Source of the DNA: an uncultured Cellvibrionales bacterium
GTDB taxonomy: Bacteria; Pseudomonadota; Gammaproteobacteria; Pseudomonadales; UBA7239
Reading direction: 5' to 3'
DNA length: 41,226 nt
Assembly: GCA_937864065.1 (NCBI GenBank)
Contig: CALMIC010000276.1
Span: 1 to 41,226, forward strand
Part shown: positions 18,030-29,239 of the stretch, piece by piece
Layout of the letters: every line of letters begins with the position of its first letter
Position numbering within the stretch: the first letter of the stretch is position 1
Made by a program: the position numbers and the translations under genes
The notes under the pieces: model-generated
Database searches by the model: none
What the model was told of the DNA's origin: nothing
Seen by the model: the letters and a program-made list of their open reading frames with translations, nothing else

Positions 18030-18536
18030 TCAGTCGAAATCGCCGAGGAAGCGACTCTTGTACTCGACCAGCTGGCCATTGGCGCGGGCCACGGTCTCCT
18101 CGTAAACGCGCTTGTAGCCGATGGCGGCGATGCGCCAGCCGTCCACCGTCTTCACGTAGCGCTCGTCATAGAACGCGGTGCCGGCAATGAGAAAGTGCTT
18201 GGCCGGATCGCGGCTCACCGTGTTGATGACGGCGTCGGTGAGGTACCAGATGCCGCGGGCTTCGGTCATCGCCTCATTGAAGGTGATCTCGGGATGATGC
18301 ACCTGGTGCTTGGTCACCACCCGCTTGTGGCTGAGGGAACCCGACAGGAAGGCCATGACCGCCTCGCGGCCGTTGTAACTGTGCTTGCCATCGGAGTAGG
18401 TACTCACCACATCCGGCGTGAACAAGGCTGCGACGGCATCCCACTCCTTCAGGTCGAGATGGCGCAGGTAGGCATACTTGAGCTGCTTGATGGCCTCGAT
18501 AGCCAGCAGCGTCGCGAATTGTTTATCGGCATTCAT
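18030..18536 (-). CDS. NTF2-like (SnoaL-type) protein
   Basis: 168 residues with the cone-shaped alpha/beta NTF2 fold pattern: helix AIEAIKQLKYAYLRHLDLKEWDAVAALFTPDVV, then YNGREAVMAFL, TKHQVHHPEITF, ARGIWYLTDAV and a final DERYVKTVDGWRIA strand pair. This resembles the SnoaL_4 group, which includes isomerases, dehydratases and ring-hydroxylase beta-like subunits acting on small hydrophobic compounds. There is no signal peptide, so it should be cytoplasmic. The ATG overlaps the stop of the lytic transglycosylase (ATGA, 18533-18536) with an AAGGGG motif upstream. Catalytic residues cannot be assigned. It may be an enzyme or a binding protein. Confidence 0.85.
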   Translation of the reverse strand: MNADKQFATLLAIEAIKQLKYAYLRHLDLKEWDAVAALFTPDVVSTYSDGKHSYNGREAVMAFLSGSLSHKRVVTKHQVHHPEITFNEAMTEARGIWYLTDAVINTVSRDPAKHFLIAGTAFYDERYVKTVDGWRIAAIGYKRVYEETVARANGQLVEYKSRFLGDFD

Positions 18537-20059
18537 GGCACAGCCCCTTCTCTGGTTGTGCCCGCATCATACCCATCCCGCCGCGCTTCCGCCTTCAGCA
18601 CTTCGCGCAGGTTGGCACCCTCGTCCAGCCGGCGGTAGCTGATGTAGTACTTGTAGATATTGCTGACGTACTGCGTGGTCTCCCTGCCCAGCTTGCGCGC
18701 CGCCACGACCTCGACATGCTGGAACCAGCGGTTCGGGTCCAGCCCCTGCTGCTCCGCCAGCTCGCGCAAGCGCTGGATGCGCGCCGGCCCGGCGTTGTAG
18801 GCGGCAAACGCGAACAGGTGCCGGTCCAGCTCGCTGATGTCGCGACTGGTGAAGTAGCGATCGGTAAGGAAGCGCAGGTACTTGATGCCGGCGTGGATGT
18901 TGTTTTCCAGACGGTCGACCTGACGGATATTGATCGGGTCACCCGCAGCCGTCGATGGCAACACCTGCATGACACCGACCGCACCCGACGGGTTGCGCGC
19001 CGACTGCTCCAGCCCCGATTCCTGGTAGGCCTGTGCCATCACCAGCAGCCAGTTGAAACCGTACTGCGCCGCGTAGCGCTGGAACAGGCCAGCCATCTGG
19101 CCGAAGCGCGCCTGCTCGTCATTGCGCAATACATTTTTCACGGCACGCGGATTCCCGTAATAGCGCGCCACCACATCGTTGCCAACAGCGGTGCCGGCAC
19201 GGTGGTCGCGCATGAAGGCATTGACCGAGGTGAGCAGTTGCGGCGCCTCCTTCCGCACTGCCCAGGCAATGCGGTTGCCGGTCGCGACAGCGATATCCTC
19301 ATGCAGCTGCAGTGACGGATATACCTGCGCCCAGAGGCGGCCGACATGCAAGTCGATGATGGCCGTGTCATACACGCCCGCATCGAGCAGTTCCAACACA
19401 TCATCATCTTCCAGCTGCTCGTCCACTTCGGTGATGGCAACCGGCGCCAACCCCTTGTCCTCCAGCTGCTCGTTGAGGCGCTGCAAGCTACCGTAATAAC
19501 TGGATGAGCGGCGCACGGCCACCGCGCGGCCGGCGAGATCCTCGATGCGGGTGAGCGGTGGCGCATCGCGGCGCGTGATGACAACTTCACTCGCATTGTC
19601 GATAAATGGCTCGGAAAAATCCGCCAGTTCCAGCCGCCCGGGTGTGATGGTGAGGTTGGCAATCGCGATATCGCCACGGCCTTCTTCCAGCCACAACAAC
19701 AGGCGGTCACGCGTGGTCGGCACAAACACCAGTTGCAAGCGCCGGCCGCTGACAGCGAAATGCCGGTTCAGGAACGCTTCGTACTGCTTGCCGAGTTCCC
19801 AGGCCACGCCGCGCGTCTCGCCGCGGTCGAGAAAATAGTTGGTGCGATTGAATGCGACCAGCACGCGCAGCACGCCGCGCTGCGCAATGGCGTCGAGATC
19901 GCCGCGCCAGGGTTCGAGCGCATGGCGCACCAGCTCGTCATCGGGCGATTCGTCCTGCAACCAGGATTCCGGCTCAAGGGTGTTGTAGTGGTAAAGCAGG
20001 CCACTGCCCAGCAGGGTGAGCAGCAACAACAGGATGGCAACAACCAGCGGGCGCGACAT
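18533..20059 (-). CDS. MltF-type lytic transglycosylase (solute-binding domain plus SLT domain)
   Basis: 508 residues. An N-terminal membrane anchor or lipid-free signal (about 5-23) is followed by a periplasmic solute-binding protein family 3 domain (about 62-300; LRVLVAFNRTNYF, GDIAIANLTITPGR, FSEPFID) and a lytic transglycosylase SLT domain (about 325-470) with putative catalytic E347 in AQAYQESGL, then NPSGAVGVMQVLPSTA and AYNAGPARI. MltF cleaves peptidoglycan to 1,6-anhydro products, and the SBP-like domain regulates it through muropeptides. The start at 20059 is fixed by a perfect AGGAGG. It is oddly placed between PiuC (48 bases upstream) and a translationally coupled NTF2-like gene. 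Confidence 0.92.
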   Translation of the reverse strand: MSRPLVVAILLLLLTLLGSGLLYHYNTLEPESWLQDESPDDELVRHALEPWRGDLDAIAQRGVLRVLVAFNRTNYFLDRGETRGVAWELGKQYEAFLNRHFAVSGRRLQLVFVPTTRDRLLLWLEEGRGDIAIANLTITPGRLELADFSEPFIDNASEVVITRRDAPPLTRIEDLAGRAVAVRRSSSYYGSLQRLNEQLEDKGLAPVAITEVDEQLEDDDVLELLDAGVYDTAIIDLHVGRLWAQVYPSLQLHEDIAVATGNRIAWAVRKEAPQLLTSVNAFMRDHRAGTAVGNDVVARYYGNPRAVKNVLRNDEQARFGQMAGLFQRYAAQYGFNWLLVMAQAYQESGLEQSARNPSGAVGVMQVLPSTAAGDPINIRQVDRLENNIHAGIKYLRFLTDRYFTSRDISELDRHLFAFAAYNAGPARIQRLRELAEQQGLDPNRWFQHVEVVAARKLGRETTQYVSNIYKYYISYRRLDEGANLREVLKAEARRDGYDAGTTREGAVP

Positions 20060-20065
20060 GGCAAT

Positions 20066-20071
20066 CCTCCT
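20066..20071 (-). promoter_or_regulatory. Strong ribosome-binding site of the MltF-like gene
   Basis: AGGAGG on the minus strand, 6 bases before the ATG at 20059. It decides the start in favour of MSRPLVV over an in-frame ATG at 20080 that lies upstream of the motif. Confidence 0.85.
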
Positions 20072-20107
20072 GCGCCGCATGGTAGCAGAGGACTTGCCGG
20101 GTTGCGC

Positions 20108-20791
20108 TCAGCTGTCTGCCCACATGCGCAGCAGGTTGTGGTAGGTGTTGGTGAGGCGGATGCTGGTATCGCTGTCGCCCTGTTGCTGGCGCAGGTCCAT
20201 GATCGCCATGTCCAGCTCGAACAAGAGCCGGCGCTGGGCATTGTCGCGCACCATGCTCTCCAGCCACATGAACGAGGCGATGCGCGCGCCGCGCGTGACC
20301 GGTTCGACGCGATGGATACTCGAAGACGGATAGAGGATCAGGTCGCCGGCCGGCAACTTGACGCGCTGCTCACCGAAAGTGTCCTCGATGACCAGCTCGC
20401 CGCCGTCATATTCTCCCGGCGCCGACAGGAACAGGGTTGCCGACAGGTCCGAGCGCACGCGGTAGCCGGTGGCAACGTGCGTGCGCATCGCATTATCGGC
20501 ATGGCTGCCAAAAAAATTGCTGCTGCCGCTGTAGCAGTTGAACAGCGGCGGGAAGATCTTTTTCGGCAACGCCGCCGCGTAGAACAGCGCATGACGCAAC
20601 AGCGCATCGAGTACGATTTGCTGCAGGCGCTGTGCCACCGGTGACTGCTCCGGCAGCTGCCGGTTGTTCTTCACCTGCGCCGACTGGCTGCCGGCCGTGG
20701 CACTACCATCAACCCACTCGGCTGTAGCGAGCAGTTCGCGGCAATGCGCGACCTGCTCACTATCCAGCACACACGGCACCTGCAGCAGCAT
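20108..20791 (-). CDS. piuC: PKHD-type Fe(II)/2-oxoglutarate hydroxylase PiuC/YbiX
   Basis: 227 residues. The PKHD motif is intact: H97 and D99 (GSHADNAM), H160 ([10 protein letters not shown]) and R170 (RGARIASF) for 2-oxoglutarate. Upstream signatures [16 protein letters not shown] and [15 protein letters not shown] are typical of the YbiX/PiuC family. The gene is 12 bases after the Fiu-like receptor, as in the E. coli fiu-ybiX pair and the Pseudomonas piuA-piuC pair. The role in siderophore use is known by association, and its substrate is not known. GGAGG precedes the ATG. Expression is probably iron-repressed through the Fur boxes upstream of the receptor. Confidence 0.95.
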
Positions 20792-20803: not shown

Positions 20804-23068
20804 TCAGAACTTGTAATCGACCTTGAGCTGCATCGTGCGCGGCGCACCCGGCAGCACATGGCCACTGTAGACGCTGTCGTAATACTCCTCGTCCAGCAGG
20901 TTGAACAGGCTGAGCTTCACGGCATAGCCCTTCTGGCTGTACTCGACCATCGCATCCCAGCGCGTGTATGAAGGCACAGCTGCCGTATTGGCCTGGTTGT
21001 TGTACCGTTCACCGACACCATCATAACCGAGGCCAGCGCGCCAGCCGCGACCGAAATCCCAGGTATTCCAGATGCTGAAGGTGTAGTGCGGTGTATTGAC
21101 CGGCTCATAACCCTCGTCCGACGTTTTGACACCAGACGCACTGGTATTCGAGTGCTCGTCGATCTCCGCTTCCATATACGCCGTCGCGGCATAGATTTCC
21201 CATTGCGGCAATGGCCGGCCGACAATTTCCAACTCCAGTGCATCGGTATGGCGCCGTCCGGACAGCACGGCGACATCCACTGCCAGGTCGGTGTTGCGCT
21301 CGTTGGTTTTCTCCGAACGCGACAGCGATGTGCGCAATGACAGGTCGCCATCGAGCAATTCCCATTTCGCTCCGATCTCGGTGTTCAGGCTTTTTTCCGG
21401 CGGCACATCGGAGGTGCGGTCGTCCAGCTGGTACAGCTCGGCTGAAGGGTTGAACGAACTGCCGCGCGAGACGTAGTAAGTGCTGTGTGCATCCGGTTGG
21501 TACAGCAGGCCCAGGCGCCAGCTGTTGACGATGTCCTTGCGCTGCAGGTCGCCGTCCGGCGCCGGACGCTGGTAATCATTTTCCGAATGGTCCCAGCGCG
21601 CACCGGTGAGCAGTTTCCACTGTTCATTGAGGCCAATCACATCCTGGAAGTAGAACGCATAACTGTCACCGGTGTAGTAGTTGTAGATGTCCTTGCCCTT
21701 GTACAGGTAACCATCCGGCAAAGCAGGATTGGTATCCGGGCTCCACCACGGTTCAGCATTCGGGTTGGCCACCCCGGCTGGCAGCGGATTGCTCCAGCGC
21801 CGCGCTTTTTCACGCAGGATCTCGTTGCCGAGCAATAACTGGTGCTCGAACGGACCGGTGCTGAACTGTGTGGTGAAATCGGTCTGGCTGGTGATGGTCT
21901 GCTCTTCACCACCGCGACCCTGGTGGCCACGGCGCACCGCCACGATATTGCTGTAGTCCACCGGGTCGGCCACCGATGCCGGTTGGTCAAGGATCAGGCG
22001 CGGCGCCACCGCCCACAGGTCGCGCTTGTAATCCGCTGCGCGCAGTTTTGTCGTCAACTCGGTGTCTTCGCTGAAACGGTGTGTGTAGGTGGCGGTGGTG
22101 ATGTCCGTGTCGTTGCGCTCGTAATCGATGGCGCTCATGCCGTAGTAGGTATCGCGGTCGACCTTCAGCGGCTCACCCTTGAATTCACCCAGCACATCAC
22201 TGCCATTGGCAGCCCGTGTGGCACCATCCGGATCCAGCAGCGGGATGCCCATGTCCGGGATATTGTCTTCCTGCAGGTGGAAATGCGACAGCGTCAGTTC
22301 ATTGTCAGTTCCGATACCGAAGCTGATCGACGGCGCCACACCCGAGCGCTCGCCATGCACCTCATCACGGAAGCTGTCGGTGTCGGTGTACATGCCGTTG
22401 ATGCGAATCGCGGTGGTTTCGCCAATCTGCTGGTTGATGTCAGCTGTGTAACGCTGGTAGCCGTAGCTGCCCTGTGTGGTGCTGACCGTGTTGCGGTCGG
22501 CCAGCAGCGGCTGCTTGCTGACCTGGTTGATCACGCCACCGGTCGAGCCGCGCCCGAACAGCATCGATGATGACCCGCGCAGCACATCGATCTGTTCCAG
22601 GTTGAAGGTTTCGCGATTGTACTGCGCCATGTCGCGCATGCCATCGAGGTAGAGATCGCCGACAGCCGAGTAACCACGAATGGTGATGTTGTCGCCGATG
22701 CGGCCGCCTTCGCCGGCATTGAAGGTAAGGCCAGCGACATTGCGCAGGGCCTCCTTGAAGGTATCGGCATTGCGATCCGCCATCAGCTTGTTGGTGATGA
22801 CCGTGACCGACTGCGGAATGTCCTTGGGTAGCTGGTCGATCTTGCCGACTTTCGTCTTGCCGCCTTGGTAGCTCACCTCGGCCGGCGTGCGGTCAGCCGT
22901 GTCGCGCACATGCACGGTTTCCAGTGTGCTGCTGTCGTCTTCTGCTGCTGAGGCCGGTTCGGCCGGCACTTGCTGCGCCTGCAGCAGCTGGCCGAAAGTC
23001 AGGCCACACAACATGGCACCGAGGGGGAGGATTTTGTGATCATTGAACTTGCGATTGACGGATTTCAT
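20804..23068 (-). CDS. Fiu/PiuA-like catecholate siderophore TonB-dependent receptor
   Basis: 754 residues. A signal peptide (about 1-31) is followed by TLETVHVRD as a TonB-box-like segment. The plug (about 70-190) carries LPKDIPQSVTVITNKLM, NITIRGYSAVGDLYLDGMRDMAQYNRE and EQIDVLRGSSSMLFGRGSTGGVINQVSKQP, the signature of the Fiu/PiuA catecholate group. The 22-strand barrel ends MQLKVDYKF. The start at 23068 is chosen because GGAG at 23075-23078 lies 6 bases upstream; the earlier TTG at 23080 would include that motif. It is divergent from a small gene across a region with three Fur boxes, and is followed by piuC. Confidence 0.93.
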   Translation of the reverse strand: MKSVNRKFNDHKILPLGAMLCGLTFGQLLQAQQVPAEPASAAEDDSSTLETVHVRDTADRTPAEVSYQGGKTKVGKIDQLPKDIPQSVTVITNKLMADRNADTFKEALRNVAGLTFNAGEGGRIGDNITIRGYSAVGDLYLDGMRDMAQYNRETFNLEQIDVLRGSSSMLFGRGSTGGVINQVSKQPLLADRNTVSTTQGSYGYQRYTADINQQIGETTAIRINGMYTDTDSFRDEVHGERSGVAPSISFGIGTDNELTLSHFHLQEDNIPDMGIPLLDPDGATRAANGSDVLGEFKGEPLKVDRDTYYGMSAIDYERNDTDITTATYTHRFSEDTELTTKLRAADYKRDLWAVAPRLILDQPASVADPVDYSNIVAVRRGHQGRGGEEQTITSQTDFTTQFSTGPFEHQLLLGNEILREKARRWSNPLPAGVANPNAEPWWSPDTNPALPDGYLYKGKDIYNYYTGDSYAFYFQDVIGLNEQWKLLTGARWDHSENDYQRPAPDGDLQRKDIVNSWRLGLLYQPDAHSTYYVSRGSSFNPSAELYQLDDRTSDVPPEKSLNTEIGAKWELLDGDLSLRTSLSRSEKTNERNTDLAVDVAVLSGRRHTDALELEIVGRPLPQWEIYAATAYMEAEIDEHSNTSASGVKTSDEGYEPVNTPHYTFSIWNTWDFGRGWRAGLGYDGVGERYNNQANTAAVPSYTRWDAMVEYSQKGYAVKLSLFNLLDEEYYDSVYSGHVLPGAPRTMQLKVDYKF

Positions 23069-23151
23069 TGATGGCTCCAACCATAAAAAAACGGGGTGTA
23101 TGGCTGGCTACTCCCGGCATGGCGCGGGCTGGCTGGCTGGCTTTATTGGGC

Positions 23152-23170
23152 GACAATGATAACTATTATT
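23152..23170. promoter_or_regulatory. Fur box 1 (Fiu-side)
   Basis: GACAATGATAACTATTATT matches 15 of 19 positions of the Fur consensus GATAATGATAATCATTATC. It lies 83 bases upstream of the Fiu-like start and probably covers that promoter. Confidence 0.8.
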
Positions 23171-23181
23171 ATTTAATTTTC

Positions 23182-23200
23182 AATAATGAGATTCATTATT
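23182..23200. promoter_or_regulatory. Fur box 2 (central)
   Basis: AATAATGAGATTCATTATT matches 15 of 19 consensus positions and is itself a near-perfect inverted repeat (AATAATGA/TTCATTATT). It lies between boxes 1 and 3 in the divergent promoter region. Confidence 0.8.
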
Positions 23201-23221: not shown

Positions 23222-23240
23222 ATATATGATAATCATTCAC
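23222..23240. promoter_or_regulatory. Fur box 3 (side of the small divergent gene)
   Basis: The core TGATAATCATT is exact, and 13 of 19 positions match overall. It ends 29 bases before the ATG of the plus-strand gene at 23270, where a repressor would block its promoter. Confidence 0.7.
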
Positions 23241-23269
23241 ATTTGAGATATCCCCACGAGGCCTTGTCC

Positions 23270-23815
23270 ATGCACACACCCGATACCCAGCCTTATCCCG
23301 TTGACACCACCGTCCATGAACTCGGCGCCAGCGAACGGCTGATGCTGATGACCTTGCGCCTGTGGGCCATGCCCCATCATAGCCCGCACAAGCAGTGCCC
23401 GGATTGGCGCACCGGTCTGTACCAGTGTGGCGCAGGCGATCAGGCATGTGTCGCGATGGACGCACTGATGAACATCCTGCTCTCCTACAGCGAGCGCCTG
23501 ATGGATGTTCGCTGCACCTGCAATACCCGCCTGGGAATCGATGAAGGCTGCTTCCTGCAAATGCTGGCAATGTTGCAGGACAATCGGCATCAGGCAGCGC
23601 AGGCCATTCTGGCCGACTGGGTGCCACTGCCGGTGCAGGGCATGGCCGTACTCTGCGCCATCCATCTGGCAGAAGCACTGCGCAGGGCAGAGGTACTGAT
23701 CCCACTGTTTTCGCGCCAGCCGGCGCAGGTGTTCCGGTTCGAGGAATTCCGGTTCAGGCGCCTGCAGCAGGCCGACGACGCTTGCGCGACCAGATCAGGA
23801 CACCGGTTGCACTGA
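23270..23815 (+). CDS. Cys/His-rich protein of unknown function under Fur boxes
   Basis: 181 residues, not recognised as a known family. No signal peptide or membrane segment is seen, so it is probably cytoplasmic and helical. Residues 36-60 contain PHHSPHKQC and a spaced set of cysteines (C43, C53, C60). Another set follows at C82, C84 and C94 (VRCTCNTRLGIDEGC). Together with H36, H37 and H40 these could bind metal or a cluster. The ATG at 23270 lies just after three Fur boxes, so iron repression is likely. The 3' end overlaps the convergent PepSY gene by 62 bases. Its position between siderophore genes suggests a part in iron use or signalling, which is inference. Confidence 0.75.
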   Translation: MHTPDTQPYPVDTTVHELGASERLMLMTLRLWAMPHHSPHKQCPDWRTGLYQCGAGDQACVAMDALMNILLSYSERLMDVRCTCNTRLGIDEGCFLQMLAMLQDNRHQAAQAILADWVPLPVQGMAVLCAIHLAEALRRAEVLIPLFSRQPAQVFRFEEFRFRRLQQADDACATRSGHRLH

Positions 23816-24929
23816 AACCGGCCACCGCCAATCCCAGCAGCGAAACGAGAATCCTGCCGGGCAGGCCGGCGATGCGCCCGGAATGCAGCGGGAACTGCGC
23901 CTGCAGGAAGATATCGCCGGCACTGCCCTGTCCTGGCACGGCATCCCCGAGTAAACGGCCATCCTGGCCATCAAGATAAAGCCACGGATGGCCGAGTCCC
24001 GCGCCATGCTCGTCGCCGGCCTCATGGAAACCGACCCCATACAGCCCGAACTCCACTGAATAGAACAGCGCACCGGGGGGCGCCGTCCAGCCCCGCTGCT
24101 GGGCTTCCACTTGCGCCAGCCTGACAGCCTCTTCGCGTGGAATGCGAGGCAAGATCGGGTTTTCTGTTGCGTTCGGCGTTCGCGAAGCAAACGGGCTGGG
24201 TGTGAGATCTGACACCAGCGCGACCAGAGGCCGCGTAACCCGCTGTTCCAGATTCATCGACACCGACGTCACTGCCAACATAAGCAACAGCAACCACAAC
24301 CACACGCCGCCGGAGCGGTGCAGATCAAAGATCACAACGTTGCGCCCCTTGTGCCAGCGGAACGCAAAGGATTTGCGCCAACTGCGACGACGTGGAAACG
24401 AGATCGACAGGGCGATGCCACTGTCGATGAGCCACACGATTGCCACAATGCCCATAAACAGCACGCCTAGCTCGATGCCAAAACCGTCAGGCATGTGCAG
24501 GCTGTAATGCAGCTTATAGAGAAATGGCAACAAGTTTTCGCGCGACAGGGAAACGGCTCCCCACTCACGCGAAGCCTGGACCGCACCGGTCACAGGATTC
24601 AATGCAAGCTGGTTGAAGCCCGTGTCGTACAGCATGCCTGTTGCAGGATTGACCATACGGTCGACAAACACCGTCAACGCATGGCCTTCCTCGTGGTGCA
24701 ACGGCAGGAAACTAATTTGCAGACGCGGATCCGTTGCTTCCAACTGGTTAGCCAGTGCCAGCGGCGACATGCGCTCACCGGGCGTCTCCGAATCGAACAG
24801 TTGCGGATTCAGCCATTCATCCAGCTCGTGATCCCACGAGATCACGGCACCGGTCAGCCCGGCAATAAAAAGAAACACGGCGGTAAACAATCCCAGCCAG
24901 CGATGCAACAACACCAAGACCTGACGCAT
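23754..24929 (-). CDS. PepSY-domain membrane protein, putative siderophore-iron reductase
   Basis: 391 residues with four predicted membrane helices (about 8-32, 145-180, 205-232 and 355-382) and two periplasmic PepSY-type regions. The opening LVLLHRWLGLFTAVFLFIAGLTGAVISWDHELD is the PepSY-associated TM signature. H9, the LHYSLHM segment and FDLHRSGG supply histidines in or near helices, as in the haem-binding reductase FoxB/PiuB group that reduces ferric siderophores after uptake. It lies 10 bases downstream of the FhuE-like receptor. The C-terminus is Arg-rich and cytoplasmic. The reductase role is inferred from family and neighbour. Confidence 0.88.
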   Translation of the reverse strand: MRQVLVLLHRWLGLFTAVFLFIAGLTGAVISWDHELDEWLNPQLFDSETPGERMSPLALANQLEATDPRLQISFLPLHHEEGHALTVFVDRMVNPATGMLYDTGFNQLALNPVTGAVQASREWGAVSLSRENLLPFLYKLHYSLHMPDGFGIELGVLFMGIVAIVWLIDSGIALSISFPRRRSWRKSFAFRWHKGRNVVIFDLHRSGGVWLWLLLLMLAVTSVSMNLEQRVTRPLVALVSDLTPSPFASRTPNATENPILPRIPREEAVRLAQVEAQQRGWTAPPGALFYSVEFGLYGVGFHEAGDEHGAGLGHPWLYLDGQDGRLLGDAVPGQGSAGDIFLQAQFPLHSGRIAGLPGRILVSLLGLAVAGFSATGVLIWSRKRRRPAAGA

Positions 24930-24939
24930 ACAGCGCTGC

Positions 24940-27072
24940 TCAATATTTCCAGGTCAGTGACGCCATCACATTGCGCGGCTCACCATAATATGCCTGGCTC
25001 CAGTTGAGGCTGTTGAGATATTTCTCGTTGGTCAGGTTGTTCAGGTTCAGCGATACATTCAGGCTTTTTGTGATGTCATATGAGACAAACGCATCCACCA
25101 GCAGGTAACTGTCCTGCCCGTACAGATCATCCGGCCCCTTGACGGTATCTTGCCAATCGAAGCTCGCGCCTACTTTCACCACCTCCAGTTGCGGCAAACG
25201 ATAGCTGAACGCACTGCGCAACATGCGTTTCGGGATATAGGCACGGACGTCAGGGCCTGCGCCGGCATCATCGATATCGAGTTGCGTATAGCCGATAGTC
25301 GCTTCCAGCCCCGGCAACAGCTCACCCGCCAGCTCGGCTTCAAAACCCTGGCTGAAAAAATCATCCGCGGAATACACGGCCTCTGGCGCGCCACTCTCGT
25401 TCGCGACATAGGTATCCCATTCGGCCAGACCGAGATACTTCGCATCGAAAACCGCAAAACTGGCATTGAGGCGATCTTCAAACCAGGCCGCTTTTAGGCC
25501 GATTTCCTTGCTGTCACCCTCTGTGGGTGCCAAGCGTTGCAGATTCCTGTTGCGCTCACCTTGCGGCATGAAGGTCTCGGTGTAACTCGCATAGGCCGAC
25601 CAGGTATCGTTGATGTCGTAGACCAGACCGGCATACGGGATCACGCGGCCGGTTTCTTTCGCCGATTGCGGCACACCGTAGCTATCGCCATCACTTTGCC
25701 AGTTGACCACGCGCGCGCCGGCCATCAGCGCCAGCGGATCAGCAAGGCGGAAACGGCCGGCAAGATACGCGCCAGTTTCCTCGTCCGTGAAATCGGAACC
25801 ATCGCCCGGTGTGGCAAAATTCGGCCGCACAACGTTGCCTTTCCAGTGATTGAAATTGCCAATGGCGGGAAAGCCATAGCCTGGGTCCGTGAATTCATCC
25901 TGCTGCAAATCCGATTGTGCATGGCTCACTCCGGCTACCACCTCGTGTTCCTGGCCGCCCAAGGTGAATTTGCCGATGGTGTACAGATCAAACATATTCT
26001 GTTCTAGTGCAGTCTCGTAGCGGCCCGGCCAGCCGAACATGCCCTGCCCTGTCGACATATCGACAGCACCGAACTGGTAAAAAAGTTCAGATGTATCGTC
26101 ATTATTGACATGACGATAGACAGTCATGAGCTTCCAGTCTTCATTGAAATCATGCACCAGTTCGACAAACAGATTGTCCTCGGTGGTATCCCAGAACGAC
26201 CAGTCAGCCGATGTGCTCATCGATTCATCAAAATCCGTCTGCACACCGTTGCTGTACGTCATTGGCAACGCGCCCCACATCGGGCTGTTTGAGCGCGTGT
26301 CCTCGCGGCTCGCACCCAGCGTTAGCACCGTGTTGTCGGTCATTCTGAAATCGGTCACACCGTACAACACGGTCTTGTCCTGGCCGTAATTATCGAGGTA
26401 AGAACCCTTGGTCTGCTGCACCAGCACGGCGCGACCACCCCAACGGTCGGTGATCGCGCCTGACACATCGCCTTCCAGCCGGTAGTTATCCCACGATCCC
26501 ACTGAAGTCGTTGCAGAAACCTGGAAGGTATCGGTCGGCCGCTTGCGCACCATGTTGACCGTAGCCGATGGATTGCCAGCGCCGGACATCAGGCCCGATG
26601 CGCCACGCACCACTTCCACGCGATCATAGAGCGCCGTGTCGGCATTACCGTAATCGATCGTGTAAGTCAGTGGCACACCGAGCCTGTCCTGCTGGAAATT
26701 GGTGATCTCGAATCCGCGAGCGGTGTAGTACACACGATCCGTCTCGATCTGCTCCACCGTTACACCGGTGGTGCCTTCCAGTACATCGTTGATGCCGGTC
26801 AGCCGGAAATCATCCATGTGAGTACGCGTCACCACCGACACCGATTGCGGCGTCTCGCGCACGGACAGATCCATCTTCGTCGCGGTCTTCATTTCGCCGG
26901 TGGTGTACGACTGCGTCTGCTCAGTTGTTTCGCCAAGGCCGGTCGCAGTGACCGTCACGACCTCCAACTGACGGACTGCCGCATCATCGGCAGCCTGCGC
27001 TTGGACAGCGCAGATTGCCAACGCCAGTGCACTGGCAGGAAACAGGAAATTCTGGCGAAAAAAAACATTCAT
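24940..27072 (-). CDS. FhuE/FoxA-like ferric siderophore TonB-dependent receptor
   Basis: 710 residues. A signal peptide (about 1-27, ending AQA) is followed by QLEVVTVTA as a TonB-box-like start. The plug (about 60-180) shows LSVRETPQSVSVVTRTHMDDF, ARGFEITNFQQDRLGVP and [30 protein letters not shown], typical of the FhuE/FpvA/FoxA hydroxamate-type group. The barrel ends VMASLTWKY with terminal aromatics. GAGGTG stands ahead of the ATG at 27072. The 132-base gap to hemP upstream contains no convincing Fur box, so expression may depend on read-through from tonB. The next gene is the PepSY reductase. Confidence 0.93.
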   Translation of the reverse strand: MNVFFRQNFLFPASALALAICAVQAQAADDAAVRQLEVVTVTATGLGETTEQTQSYTTGEMKTATKMDLSVRETPQSVSVVTRTHMDDFRLTGINDVLEGTTGVTVEQIETDRVYYTARGFEITNFQQDRLGVPLTYTIDYGNADTALYDRVEVVRGASGLMSGAGNPSATVNMVRKRPTDTFQVSATTSVGSWDNYRLEGDVSGAITDRWGGRAVLVQQTKGSYLDNYGQDKTVLYGVTDFRMTDNTVLTLGASREDTRSNSPMWGALPMTYSNGVQTDFDESMSTSADWSFWDTTEDNLFVELVHDFNEDWKLMTVYRHVNNDDTSELFYQFGAVDMSTGQGMFGWPGRYETALEQNMFDLYTIGKFTLGGQEHEVVAGVSHAQSDLQQDEFTDPGYGFPAIGNFNHWKGNVVRPNFATPGDGSDFTDEETGAYLAGRFRLADPLALMAGARVVNWQSDGDSYGVPQSAKETGRVIPYAGLVYDINDTWSAYASYTETFMPQGERNRNLQRLAPTEGDSKEIGLKAAWFEDRLNASFAVFDAKYLGLAEWDTYVANESGAPEAVYSADDFFSQGFEAELAGELLPGLEATIGYTQLDIDDAGAGPDVRAYIPKRMLRSAFSYRLPQLEVVKVGASFDWQDTVKGPDDLYGQDSYLLVDAFVSYDITKSLNVSLNLNNLTNEKYLNSLNWSQAYYGEPRNVMASLTWKY

Positions 27073-27204: not shown

Positions 27205-27363
27205 TTATTTAGTGAGAATCAGCTTGTTCTCGCGCGTGATGCGCAGCAGGTAGCGCTGGCCTGCGTGTTCGATACAGAGCGTGCGCGCCCCACGGAACAA
27301 CTGTTCCGAGGTCACACTGAGCATGGCATCGGCAGCCACAGGCGGCAGTTTGTCACTGGCCAT
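27205..27363 (-). CDS. hemP: Hemin uptake protein HemP/HmuP
   Basis: 52 residues. The C-terminal half SEQLFRGARTLCIEHAGQRY followed by LLRITRENKLILTK is the complete HemP signature (LF.G...I.H.G..Y.LR.T...KLILTK). The ATG at 27363 lies inside the 3' end of exbD, overlapping by 11 bases, with GGGAG 6 bases upstream. HemP proteins accompany haem uptake genes, and in some bacteria HmuP regulates the haem receptor. Here no haem receptor is visible in the window, and the neighbours are tonB-exbBD and a hydroxamate-type receptor. Confidence 0.9.
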   Translation of the reverse strand: MASDKLPPVAADAMLSVTSEQLFRGARTLCIEHAGQRYLLRITRENKLILTK

Positions 27364-27799
27364 CGGCAACTCCCGCAGCCTGCACGCCACCGCCGGGCAA
27401 CATGACAAAGCCCATCTTGCTGACTCCGGCCTGTTTCACTTCGGCCATCACCTGCGCCACGCGCTCGTAGCGCACATCCTTGTCCGCCATCAGGTGCAGT
27501 TCCGGCTGCGGCTGGCGCGCTGCAATCTCGGCCAGCCGCAACTGCAGGCTATCGTCAGCCATGCTTTCTGTGTTCCAGCTCAATCGCCCATCGGCGGCAA
27601 TGGCGAGGCTCACCACCTCCGGTTTCTGCTCCGTCACACTACCTGCCGCTTTCGGAAGGTTAACCGTAACCGATTGCGTGATCAGTGGCGCACAGACGAT
27701 GAAGATAATCAGCAACACCAGCATCACATCGACCAGCGGCGTCATGTTGATTTCCGCCATCGGCTGCGCATTACCCTGTTCAAAACTGCCGAAAGCCAT
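27353..27799 (-). CDS. exbD: Biopolymer transport protein ExbD
   Basis: 148 residues. A short cytoplasmic N-terminus leads to a single membrane helix with the essential aspartate D24 in EINMTPLVDVMLVLLIIFIV. A periplasmic domain with the ELHLMADKDVRYERVAQVM motif follows. ExbD and ExbB form the proton channel that energises TonB. The start overlaps the exbB stop by one base (TGATG). The C-terminal extension after VMLPGG (about 12 residues) overlaps hemP. Confidence 0.96.
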   Translation of the reverse strand: MAFGSFEQGNAQPMAEINMTPLVDVMLVLLIIFIVCAPLITQSVTVNLPKAAGSVTEQKPEVVSLAIAADGRLSWNTESMADDSLQLRLAEIAARQPQPELHLMADKDVRYERVAQVMAEVKQAGVSKMGFVMLPGGGVQAAGVADGQ

Positions 27800-28512
27800 C
27801 AGCGCTTCTCCACCGCTTTCAGCGCCGGCTGGGGCTGCGAGGAACCCAATGTGAAATACATCAGCAGGTCGTGCGCAAAGCCGTCCAGGTCGGCCACCAC
27901 CAGCCGCTGCACACGGTTGAACGCGTTGTAACCCAGCACGGCAGGAATGGCGACGAACAGCCCAATCGCCGTCATGATCAATGCCTCACCGACCGGGCCA
28001 GCCACCTTGTCCAGCGTAGCCTGGCCGGTCATGCCGATCGCCGCCAGTGCGTGGTAAATCCCCCACACCGTGCCGAACAGGCCCACGAACGGCGACACCG
28101 ACCCGATCGAGGCGAGGAACACCTGGCCGCGCTCGAGATCCGCCGAGGCGCGGTTGAGCGCCTGGCGCAAGGCGCGGGTGACGATTTCGGTGAGCGACAG
28201 CTGCGAATCGAGATGCGCCTGCATGCCGGAGCGGTGGCTCTGGTAGTGCTCCACGGCATTGCGGCCGTGTTCCACCAGCAGGCGAAATGGTAGCATTCGC
28301 GCCAGCTCTTGCAGGCCGGCGTCAAGATCCTGCGCCTGCCAGAAGCGGTCGAGCGCACCGCTGTTGCCATGCTGCCACCATGCCATCTGCACGCTTTTGG
28401 CGAGGATGATCGCCCAGCTCACCACCGACATCGCCAGCAGCAGGATCAGCACCGCGTGCGACACCGCATCACCCTGCTGCCAGAAAGTGACCAGATCCAG
28501 ATTGAATGTCAT
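27799..28512 (-). CDS. exbB: TonB-system proton channel subunit ExbB
   Basis: 237 residues with the MotA/TolQ/ExbB domain. Three membrane helices (about 15-38, 125-150 and 168-195) contain SIGSVSPFVGLFGTVWGIYHALAAIG and GPVGEALIMTAIGLFVAIPAVLGYN, the family's core. The ATG at 28512 has GAGGT 9 bases upstream. The longer open frame to 28653 runs through the tonB 3' end and has no homology. It lies 16 bases after tonB and overlaps exbD by one base. Confidence 0.96.
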   Translation of the reverse strand: MTFNLDLVTFWQQGDAVSHAVLILLLAMSVVSWAIILAKSVQMAWWQHGNSGALDRFWQAQDLDAGLQELARMLPFRLLVEHGRNAVEHYQSHRSGMQAHLDSQLSLTEIVTRALRQALNRASADLERGQVFLASIGSVSPFVGLFGTVWGIYHALAAIGMTGQATLDKVAGPVGEALIMTAIGLFVAIPAVLGYNAFNRVQRLVVADLDGFAHDLLMYFTLGSSQPQPALKAVEKR

Positions 28513-28528
28513 TGCCTGTTTACCTCGT

Positions 28529-29239
28529 TCATTCCTGCAGGCTGAACTGGATCGGTACTTCCACCCAGCTCGCCACCGCTGTCTCACCCTGCCGGGCGGG
28601 GACAAAACGCCATTCTGCCGCTGCCTTGCTGGCAGCCTCGTCCAGCCGCGCAAAGCCGGACGACTTCTTCACCTCGACGGCCAACGGCTTGCCGTCGGCC
28701 GACACCTGCACCCGCAACAGTACCTTGCCCTGTTCCCCGAGCCGGCGCGACAGTGGCGGGTAACCCGGCGCTGGGTTGTTCAGGTAAGCCGCGTCGTAGC
28801 GGGCTGCCGTGACCGGTGCCGGCGCCGGTGGTGCGGCAGACGGCGCTGCCGCACTGGCTGCCGGGGCTGGCGCTGCGGGCGCCTGCTCGACCTGGGGCTT
28901 CGTGACCGGCTTCGGCGGTTGCACCTTCTTCGGCGGTTTCTTCACCACCTTGTGCTGCTCGGCCATCTCATCAGGGCGCAAGGACTCAGGCTGCGGCGGC
29001 TCAGGTGGTGGCGGCACTGCCATCGCTGGTTGCTGCACCTGCTCACCGGCCGGCGGTGCAAGCGTCAGCAGATCCACCGTCACCGTTTGCTCTACCCCCA
29101 ACACCAGCGGCACGGGCGCGGGGCGAGACAGCCACCAGACCAGTGCGCCAGCATGCAGGCCAGCCGACAACAGCACTCCGACCAGCACAGCCAACTGGCT
29201 GCGGGTGGCGGGCGACCTGTCAACCGGAAAACCTTGCAA
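28529..29239 (-). CDS. tonB: Energy transducer TonB
   Basis: 236 residues. A single membrane helix (about 15-38) carries the functional histidine H29 (SAGLHAGALVWW). Periplasmic Pro-rich (about 61-85) and Pro/Lys-rich (about 97-125) spacers follow. The C-terminal TonB domain (about 155-234) has NPAPGYPPLSRRLGEQGKV, GFARLDEAA and AEWRFVPAR. The start is a TTG at 29239 with GAGGT 9 bases upstream, and no ATG precedes the membrane helix in frame. A strong Fur box lies 28 bases upstream of this start. It heads the tonB-exbB-exbD-hemP operon. Confidence 0.95.
   Translation of the reverse strand: MQGFPVDRSPATRSQLAVLVGVLLSAGLHAGALVWWLSRPAPVPLVLGVEQTVTVDLLTLAPPAGEQVQQPAMAVPPPPEPPQPESLRPDEMAEQHKVVKKPPKKVQPPKPVTKPQVEQAPAAPAPAASAAAPSAAPPAPAPVTAARYDAAYLNNPAPGYPPLSRRLGEQGKVLLRVQVSADGKPLAVEVKKSSGFARLDEAASKAAAEWRFVPARQGETAVASWVEVPIQFSLQE

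Follow-up and report, generated by a model that had tools for sequence, protein, structure and literature searches.

The question raised by this locus is what a small protein of no recognised family does among genes for iron uptake. Within the window (the whole stretch analysed, 41,226 nucleotides from an uncultured Cellvibrionales bacterium), its gene lies at 23270..23815 on the forward strand (+); the ORF listing, the alignment and AlphaFold together describe a family gene for an all-helical predicted protein of 181 residues. The reading frame starts with ATG, has ACGAGG 9-14 bases 5' of it and shows GC contents of 0.66/0.45/0.75 at the three codon positions, the pattern of a genuine coding gene. 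All of the cysteines and histidines listed for it beforehand are in place (C43, C53, C60, C82, C84, C94, H36, H37 and H40), and the protein has, besides these, C129, C172, H2, H16, H107, H132, H178 and H181, the last being its final residue. Its cysteine content is 4.4% against a family median of 2.3%, with 71 of 76 sequences (itself counted) equal or lower. By eye, no signal peptide can be made out, in agreement with the preliminary description, and the protein is presumably cytosolic.

The gene sits in an iron island. Across a common intergenic gap of 189 bases, it diverges from a gene for a Fiu-like TonB-dependent siderophore receptor (20804..23080, -; PRK09840, 334.7 bits, short of the 686 cut-off), and a convergent gene for a PepSY-associated TM protein (23754..24929, -) overlaps its final 62 bases. 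The PepSY assignment comes from a family-model search, as do those of a YbiX/PiuC-type PKHD Fe(II) dioxygenase (20108..20791, -) and of a second TonB-dependent siderophore receptor, FauA/FhuE-like (24940..27072, -). Further along are hemP (27205..27408, -; PF10636, 67.4 bits) and, at 27353-29239, ORFs that we take to encode ExbB, ExbD and TonB-like proteins. The island also includes an MltF-like protein with solute-binding and lytic transglycosylase domains (18533-20080, -).

Iron control had been proposed from a Fur-like site 29 bases upstream of the start codon. That site exists (23222-23240, +, 13/19 to the strict E. coli consensus) and overlaps another on the opposite strand (23228-23246, -), the two together spanning 23222..23246, both at 13/19 strict. 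Further upstream are two better-scoring sites, GACAATGATAACTATTATT at 23152..23170 (+) and AATAATGAGATTCATTATT at 23182..23200 (+), each matching 15/19 strict and 16/19 degenerate. The region that holds them is 32% GC, and the best Fur-consensus match in 40 dinucleotide shuffles of it was 13, never exceeded.

Does the protein stand alone? A first scan of genome contigs with the single protein retrieved no relative; searched with one sequence, the 390 genomes of the order yielded a single strong relative (31% identity, E 8.6e-17) beside several weak ones. Profile searches recovered relatives in 7 of these 390 genomes, in 32 of 388 from the phylum and in 59 of 230 from the Alphaproteobacteria, the last being about a quarter. 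Among 81 genomes searched, all 45 of genus g627 (identified as Azospirillum) carried at least one copy; a genome scan found the family in 14 Azospirillum records, and tblastn located relatives on plasmids of Azospirillum, Paraburkholderia, Mycetohabitans and a Rhodobacteraceae strain. Family counts exclude ORFs below 60 bits (86 distinct ORFs in one set, 76 in the alignment), and weak matches that contained stops or were very short (L002, L003, L008, L009, L011) were left out. Judged from these sequences, the window protein belongs to a family of small, predicted helical proteins that is scattered across many Proteobacteria. Tandem or divergent pairs of family genes occur in four loci (L117, L124, L131, L145). 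Two copies on Mycetohabitans megaplasmids (L030, L082) have a frame that is short or runs into unrelated sequence by uvrA, as if decaying, and in genomes that we assume from sequence type to be Bradyrhizobium-like (L063-L066) another family-like ORF, very weak at 21-27 bits, lies directly 3', near L063:5520-5999. The tree gave 0.94 for a group of 12 that includes Azospirillum, Paraburkholderia and others; support for placing the window protein was weak, its two nearest nodes having values of 0.48 and 0.44, and gene transfer is not claimed for it.

The earlier statement that the protein fits no known family held up, as Pfam, NCBIfam, PHROGs, PADLOC and PDB sequence searches with it gave nothing weighty. 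No Pfam or NCBIfam family model matched the 48 members compared (the window protein and 47 relatives), the only stray Pfam match being TYW2_N in one member (E 0.009), and the family profile reached a best E of 0.1 against PDB. Neither PF04324 (Bfd, Fer2_BFD) nor PF00210 (Ferritin-like) matched the window protein or the other 47, and curated FhuF or FeoC models in Pfam and NCBIfam were likewise unmatched by all 48. In the literature searched, we recognised no paper as describing the family: the available part of a source on Caulobacter lists hypothetical Fur-repressed genes, none that we could tie to the family (PMC3751524), and the available parts of two others (PMC9368920, PMC4344238) offered no help regarding it. 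So far as these libraries and this literature go, the protein family appears to be new and its regulon already known. Few bacterial circuits have been studied as well as Fur regulons, yet this widespread family has no Pfam or NCBIfam model (48 members), and for the window protein there is also no PHROGs or PADLOC model and no solved relative was found.

The regulatory signal recurs across the family. Using a degenerate 19-mer, whose design drew in part on sites already seen, we found a Fur-like box (≥16/19) upstream of 47 of 76 family genes as against 13 of 1109 control genes, i.e., other genes of the same loci, and a scan with the strict E. coli consensus (≥13) marked 36/76 and 22/1109, respectively. 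In the held-out loci L113-L152, whose promoters were unseen when the motif was set, a box precedes 31 of 43 family genes and 8 of 651 controls. The named Azospirillum loci (L153-L166) have one in 13 of 14 cases, and in the sole boxless locus the contig end leaves 6 bases upstream. A box in the promoter, as is characteristic of a Fur regulon, is found both in the window gene (15/19) and in the family (47/76). These counts lend strong family-wide support to the iron control that had been read from a single promoter, and the window gene itself is probably repressed by Fur. No box at ≥16/19 precedes 29 of the 76 genes. Five boxless Rhodobacterales-type copies (L073, L074, L076, L081, L148) start in the stop codon of hemP with an ATGA overlap and may therefore use the hemP promoter; Irr/ICE-like boxes before boxless copies were nowhere convincing, the best in L063-L066 reaching 10/14.

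Which parts of the protein are kept? In the alignment of 76 members, R30 and E92 are present in all 76, D91 in 67 and W32 in 63. Of the Cys/His cluster noted in the preliminary description, what recurs is the loop of C82 and C84 (VRCTCNTRLGIDE, residues 80-92; 23507..23545, +), in which at least one Cys occurs in 66/76 members and at least two in 47/76; over the 13 residues ending at E92, 10 members have no Cys, 19 have one, 39 two and 8 three. The remainder is not conserved: the columns of C43, C53, C60 and C94 each have Cys in at most 5 of 76 members, and neither H36 (His in 8/76), H37 (4/76) nor H40 is maintained. An invariant Cys, as in a Cys-ligated metal or Fe-S protein, is not found, 10/76 members having no loop Cys at all, and ligands other than Cys are possible.

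The protein ends in R-L-H (23804..23812, +), within the low-confidence tail of both structural models, and relatives share a hydrophobic-His terminus. A C-terminal His is found in 51 of 76 members, compared with an overall His frequency of 3.2%, and it is preceded by L, V, I, M or F in 50 of the 51. Going by the alignment, this His, absent from the original list, makes a stronger candidate than H36, H37 or H40. It is also linked to the loop: 49 of 66 members with a loop Cys end in His as against 2 of 10 without (p 0.0016), and among 59 representatives at <50% identity the figures are 34/50 and 2/9 (p 0.021), an association only partly corrected for relatedness. Since some of the Cys-less sequences are mutual relatives in sister comparisons, independent events must be fewer than the counts. 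Cys elsewhere in the protein shows no association with the terminal His (p 0.39). The linkage suggests that Cys loop and terminal His might form one site. However, given that 10/76 members have no loop Cys and 25/76 no terminal His, there is no single universal metal site, and because both features are lost in some lineages, we do not call this a proven metal site. A second Azospirillum group (L135, L192, L193, L195, L196) has an AAE terminus instead of His, mostly with Fur-like boxes.

The AlphaFold model of the window protein (48 sequences; pLDDT 89.1, pTM 0.78) has predicted helices at 20-37, 47-52, 56-73, 90-103, 107-115, 120-139 and 151-177, with low confidence after 150. In it, helices 56-73 and 90-103 flank the Cys loop, and E92 opens the second of them. 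The model of a short Burkholderia-like member, L061 (pLDDT 87.1, last residues at 54), has a much alike helix order. The best Foldseek E against PDB was 0.92 for the window model and 0.68 for the L061 model, and a fold search of a viral library reached a best E of 0.29. With VIA, the best Z of the two models were 3.9 (86 aligned, 4.1 A) and 4.9 (106 aligned, 3.8 A), and the ferritin four-helix fold appeared only in weak rows, e.g., Dps 2yjk (Z 2.4, 82 aligned, 3.8 A). Matches of this kind are within the ordinary range of the tool, so that we claim no known fold, and no new one either.

In 89 loci, a set that includes near-duplicates (e.g., L028 and L029, and several Azospirillum), the markers found no more than 3 kb from the family gene were bfr in 8, hemP in 7, bfd in 6, peroxiredoxin in 6, imelysin in 3, TonB receptor in 3, ExbB in 2, PiuC in 2 and PepSY in 1. 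Five of the seven nearby hemP genes overlap the start of the family gene. At least one of bfr, hemP, bfd, peroxiredoxin, imelysin, TonB receptor and ExbB occurs within 3 kb in 23 of 89 loci, and none of these seven in the other 66. In more distant places of the same loci, the same seeds gave bfr 2, bfd 2, hemP 1, peroxiredoxin 1, TonB receptor 2, ExbB 1 and imelysin 7; as the seeds were drawn from these loci themselves, the numbers for TonB receptors and other diverse families are minima. With FAM denoting the family gene, the clear arrangements are FAM-bfd-bfr in L126 (13-base gap), bfd-bfr-FAM in L122, bfr-bfr-FAM in L128, FAM-FAM-bfd in L145 and hemP-FAM-irpA-bfd-bfr in L076; in L149, FAM is divergent to bfd-bfr. 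Two studies of Rhodobacter sphaeroides describe a hemP-irpA-bfd-bfr operon that low iron induces and IscR represses (PMC4176601, PMC4618611).

When the Pfam matches of 130 + 110 neighbours were set beside those of 127 distal genes (21/261 near and 18/145 distal ORFs omitted by hand; near-duplicates or broken copies L028, L064, L065, L066, L030, L082, L025 and L026 omitted from the neighbour lists), the neighbours gave, among the matches listed, Ferritin 3 + 3, imelysin 3, Fer2_BFD 2, AhpC-TSA 3, Plug 4 and NAS 2. A fixed neighbour partner was considered and dropped, no family being constant among the matches listed (top 25 Pfam families). The adjacency to Fiu-like or PepSY genes that had been raised at the outset is a feature of the window only, with PepSY in 1/89 loci. 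The two neighbour genes that match NAS (nicotianamine synthase) suggest metallophore genes near some copies. In two related genomes, the gene divergent to the family gene encodes another small protein without a name (L014:11712-11993, -, and L016:1185-1625, +); the two are alike by eye, have no weighty Pfam or NCBIfam match, and in both genomes a peroxiredoxin gene is nearby. In the window's own assembly (91% complete), neither bfd nor a ferritin-like gene was detected with models that found matches in 7/14 and 14/14 control genomes, respectively, and the window protein may accordingly not need them.

Taken as a whole, we consider it about an even chance that these proteins form a hitherto undescribed family, small, cytosolic, all-helical and produced under iron scarcity, that acts on intracellular iron, which is the best explanation at hand. 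Fur-type control, together with a tie to intracellular iron genes and not to one transporter, favours a cytosolic iron-handling or adaptor protein; given that an iron-starvation switch is usual and that iron-storage or heme-iron genes often adjoin, the protein probably helps cells to handle scarce iron. When iron is plentiful, Fe-Fur on the tandem boxes of the 189-base gap would silence both the window gene and the Fiu-like receptor gene; as iron falls, both proteins would be produced, the receptor importing ferric siderophore and the window protein acting intracellularly on iron redistribution or mobilisation. Its compact domain bears the Cys loop beside the invariant Glu, and its flexible tail ends in hydrophobic-His; loop and tail probably cooperate, either to ligate Fe(II), heme or an Fe-S cluster or to offer a patch for partner docking. 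We postulate only tentatively, and with more doubt than belief, that throughout this widespread Fur-repressed family the Cys loop and the hydrophobic-His tail make a joint iron, heme or partner-docking site for iron redistribution in starvation. If that were true, there would be a step between uptake and storage without a known player of such type. The operons with hemP, bfd and bfr make a possible missing intracellular iron-handling step directly testable in laboratory strains.

Other roles would fit parts of this evidence. The neighbours in some loci bring to mind a partner of bacterioferritin that aids release of stored iron with Bfd, or the loading of Bfr, with the hydrophobic-His tail docking on Bfr: bfr and bfd lie within 3 kb in 8/89 and 6/89 loci, the genes are consecutive on the same strand in L126, L122, L128 and L076, and in R. 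sphaeroides low iron induces bfd itself (PMC4176601, PMC4618611). However, 81/89 loci have no bfr within 3 kb and the window assembly (91% complete) has no detected ferritin-like or bfd gene, and we hold this role to be unlikely. To a similar degree, we doubt that the protein senses Fe-S, heme or Fe(II) and tunes other iron genes from within the regulon; the recurrent Cys loop (66/76), the linked terminal His and the box evidence for Fur control would suit such a regulator, but Pfam finds no DNA-binding domain, there is no close fold match and the Cys is not universal.

Two further roles seem more remote still. A peroxiredoxin gene within 3 kb in 6/89 loci, the nearest at 21 bases, would agree with a factor that protects iron-starved cells against peroxide or redox stress by means of a redox-active Cys loop, yet two or more loop Cys are present in only 47/76 members and none in 10, making this quite improbable. 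Equally hard to credit is the release of siderophore iron in concert with the Fiu-like receptor and the PepSY protein, one of the options offered by the preliminary description; the window gene is indeed divergent from the one and convergent with the other, but PepSY adjoins in 1/89 loci and a TonB receptor is found within 3 kb in 3/89 with the seeds used.

With an intracellular iron-handling protein as the preferred reading, four known systems invite comparison. FhuF, the siderophore-iron reductase, is Fur-regulated and cytosolic and has cysteines that matter; the present family has no Pfam match and its C-terminus has His rather than a Cys cluster. FeoC is a small cytosolic iron-related protein whose cysteines have a debated role, and from it, too, the family differs in having no Pfam match. 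HemP (PF10636) has no sequence match to the family, and the HemP ORFs in these loci are about 55-97 aa; it is nonetheless also the product of an iron-starvation gene; that gene is part of the same island of the window and, in five Rhodobacterales-type loci, shares bases with the family gene. Bfd (Fer2_BFD, PF04324) is set apart in that none of the 48 members matches its model and that the family proteins are larger and, in prediction, all-helical, Bfd ORFs having about 60-100 aa; like them, however, Bfd is a small low-iron protein, and its gene adjoins the family gene in several genomes.
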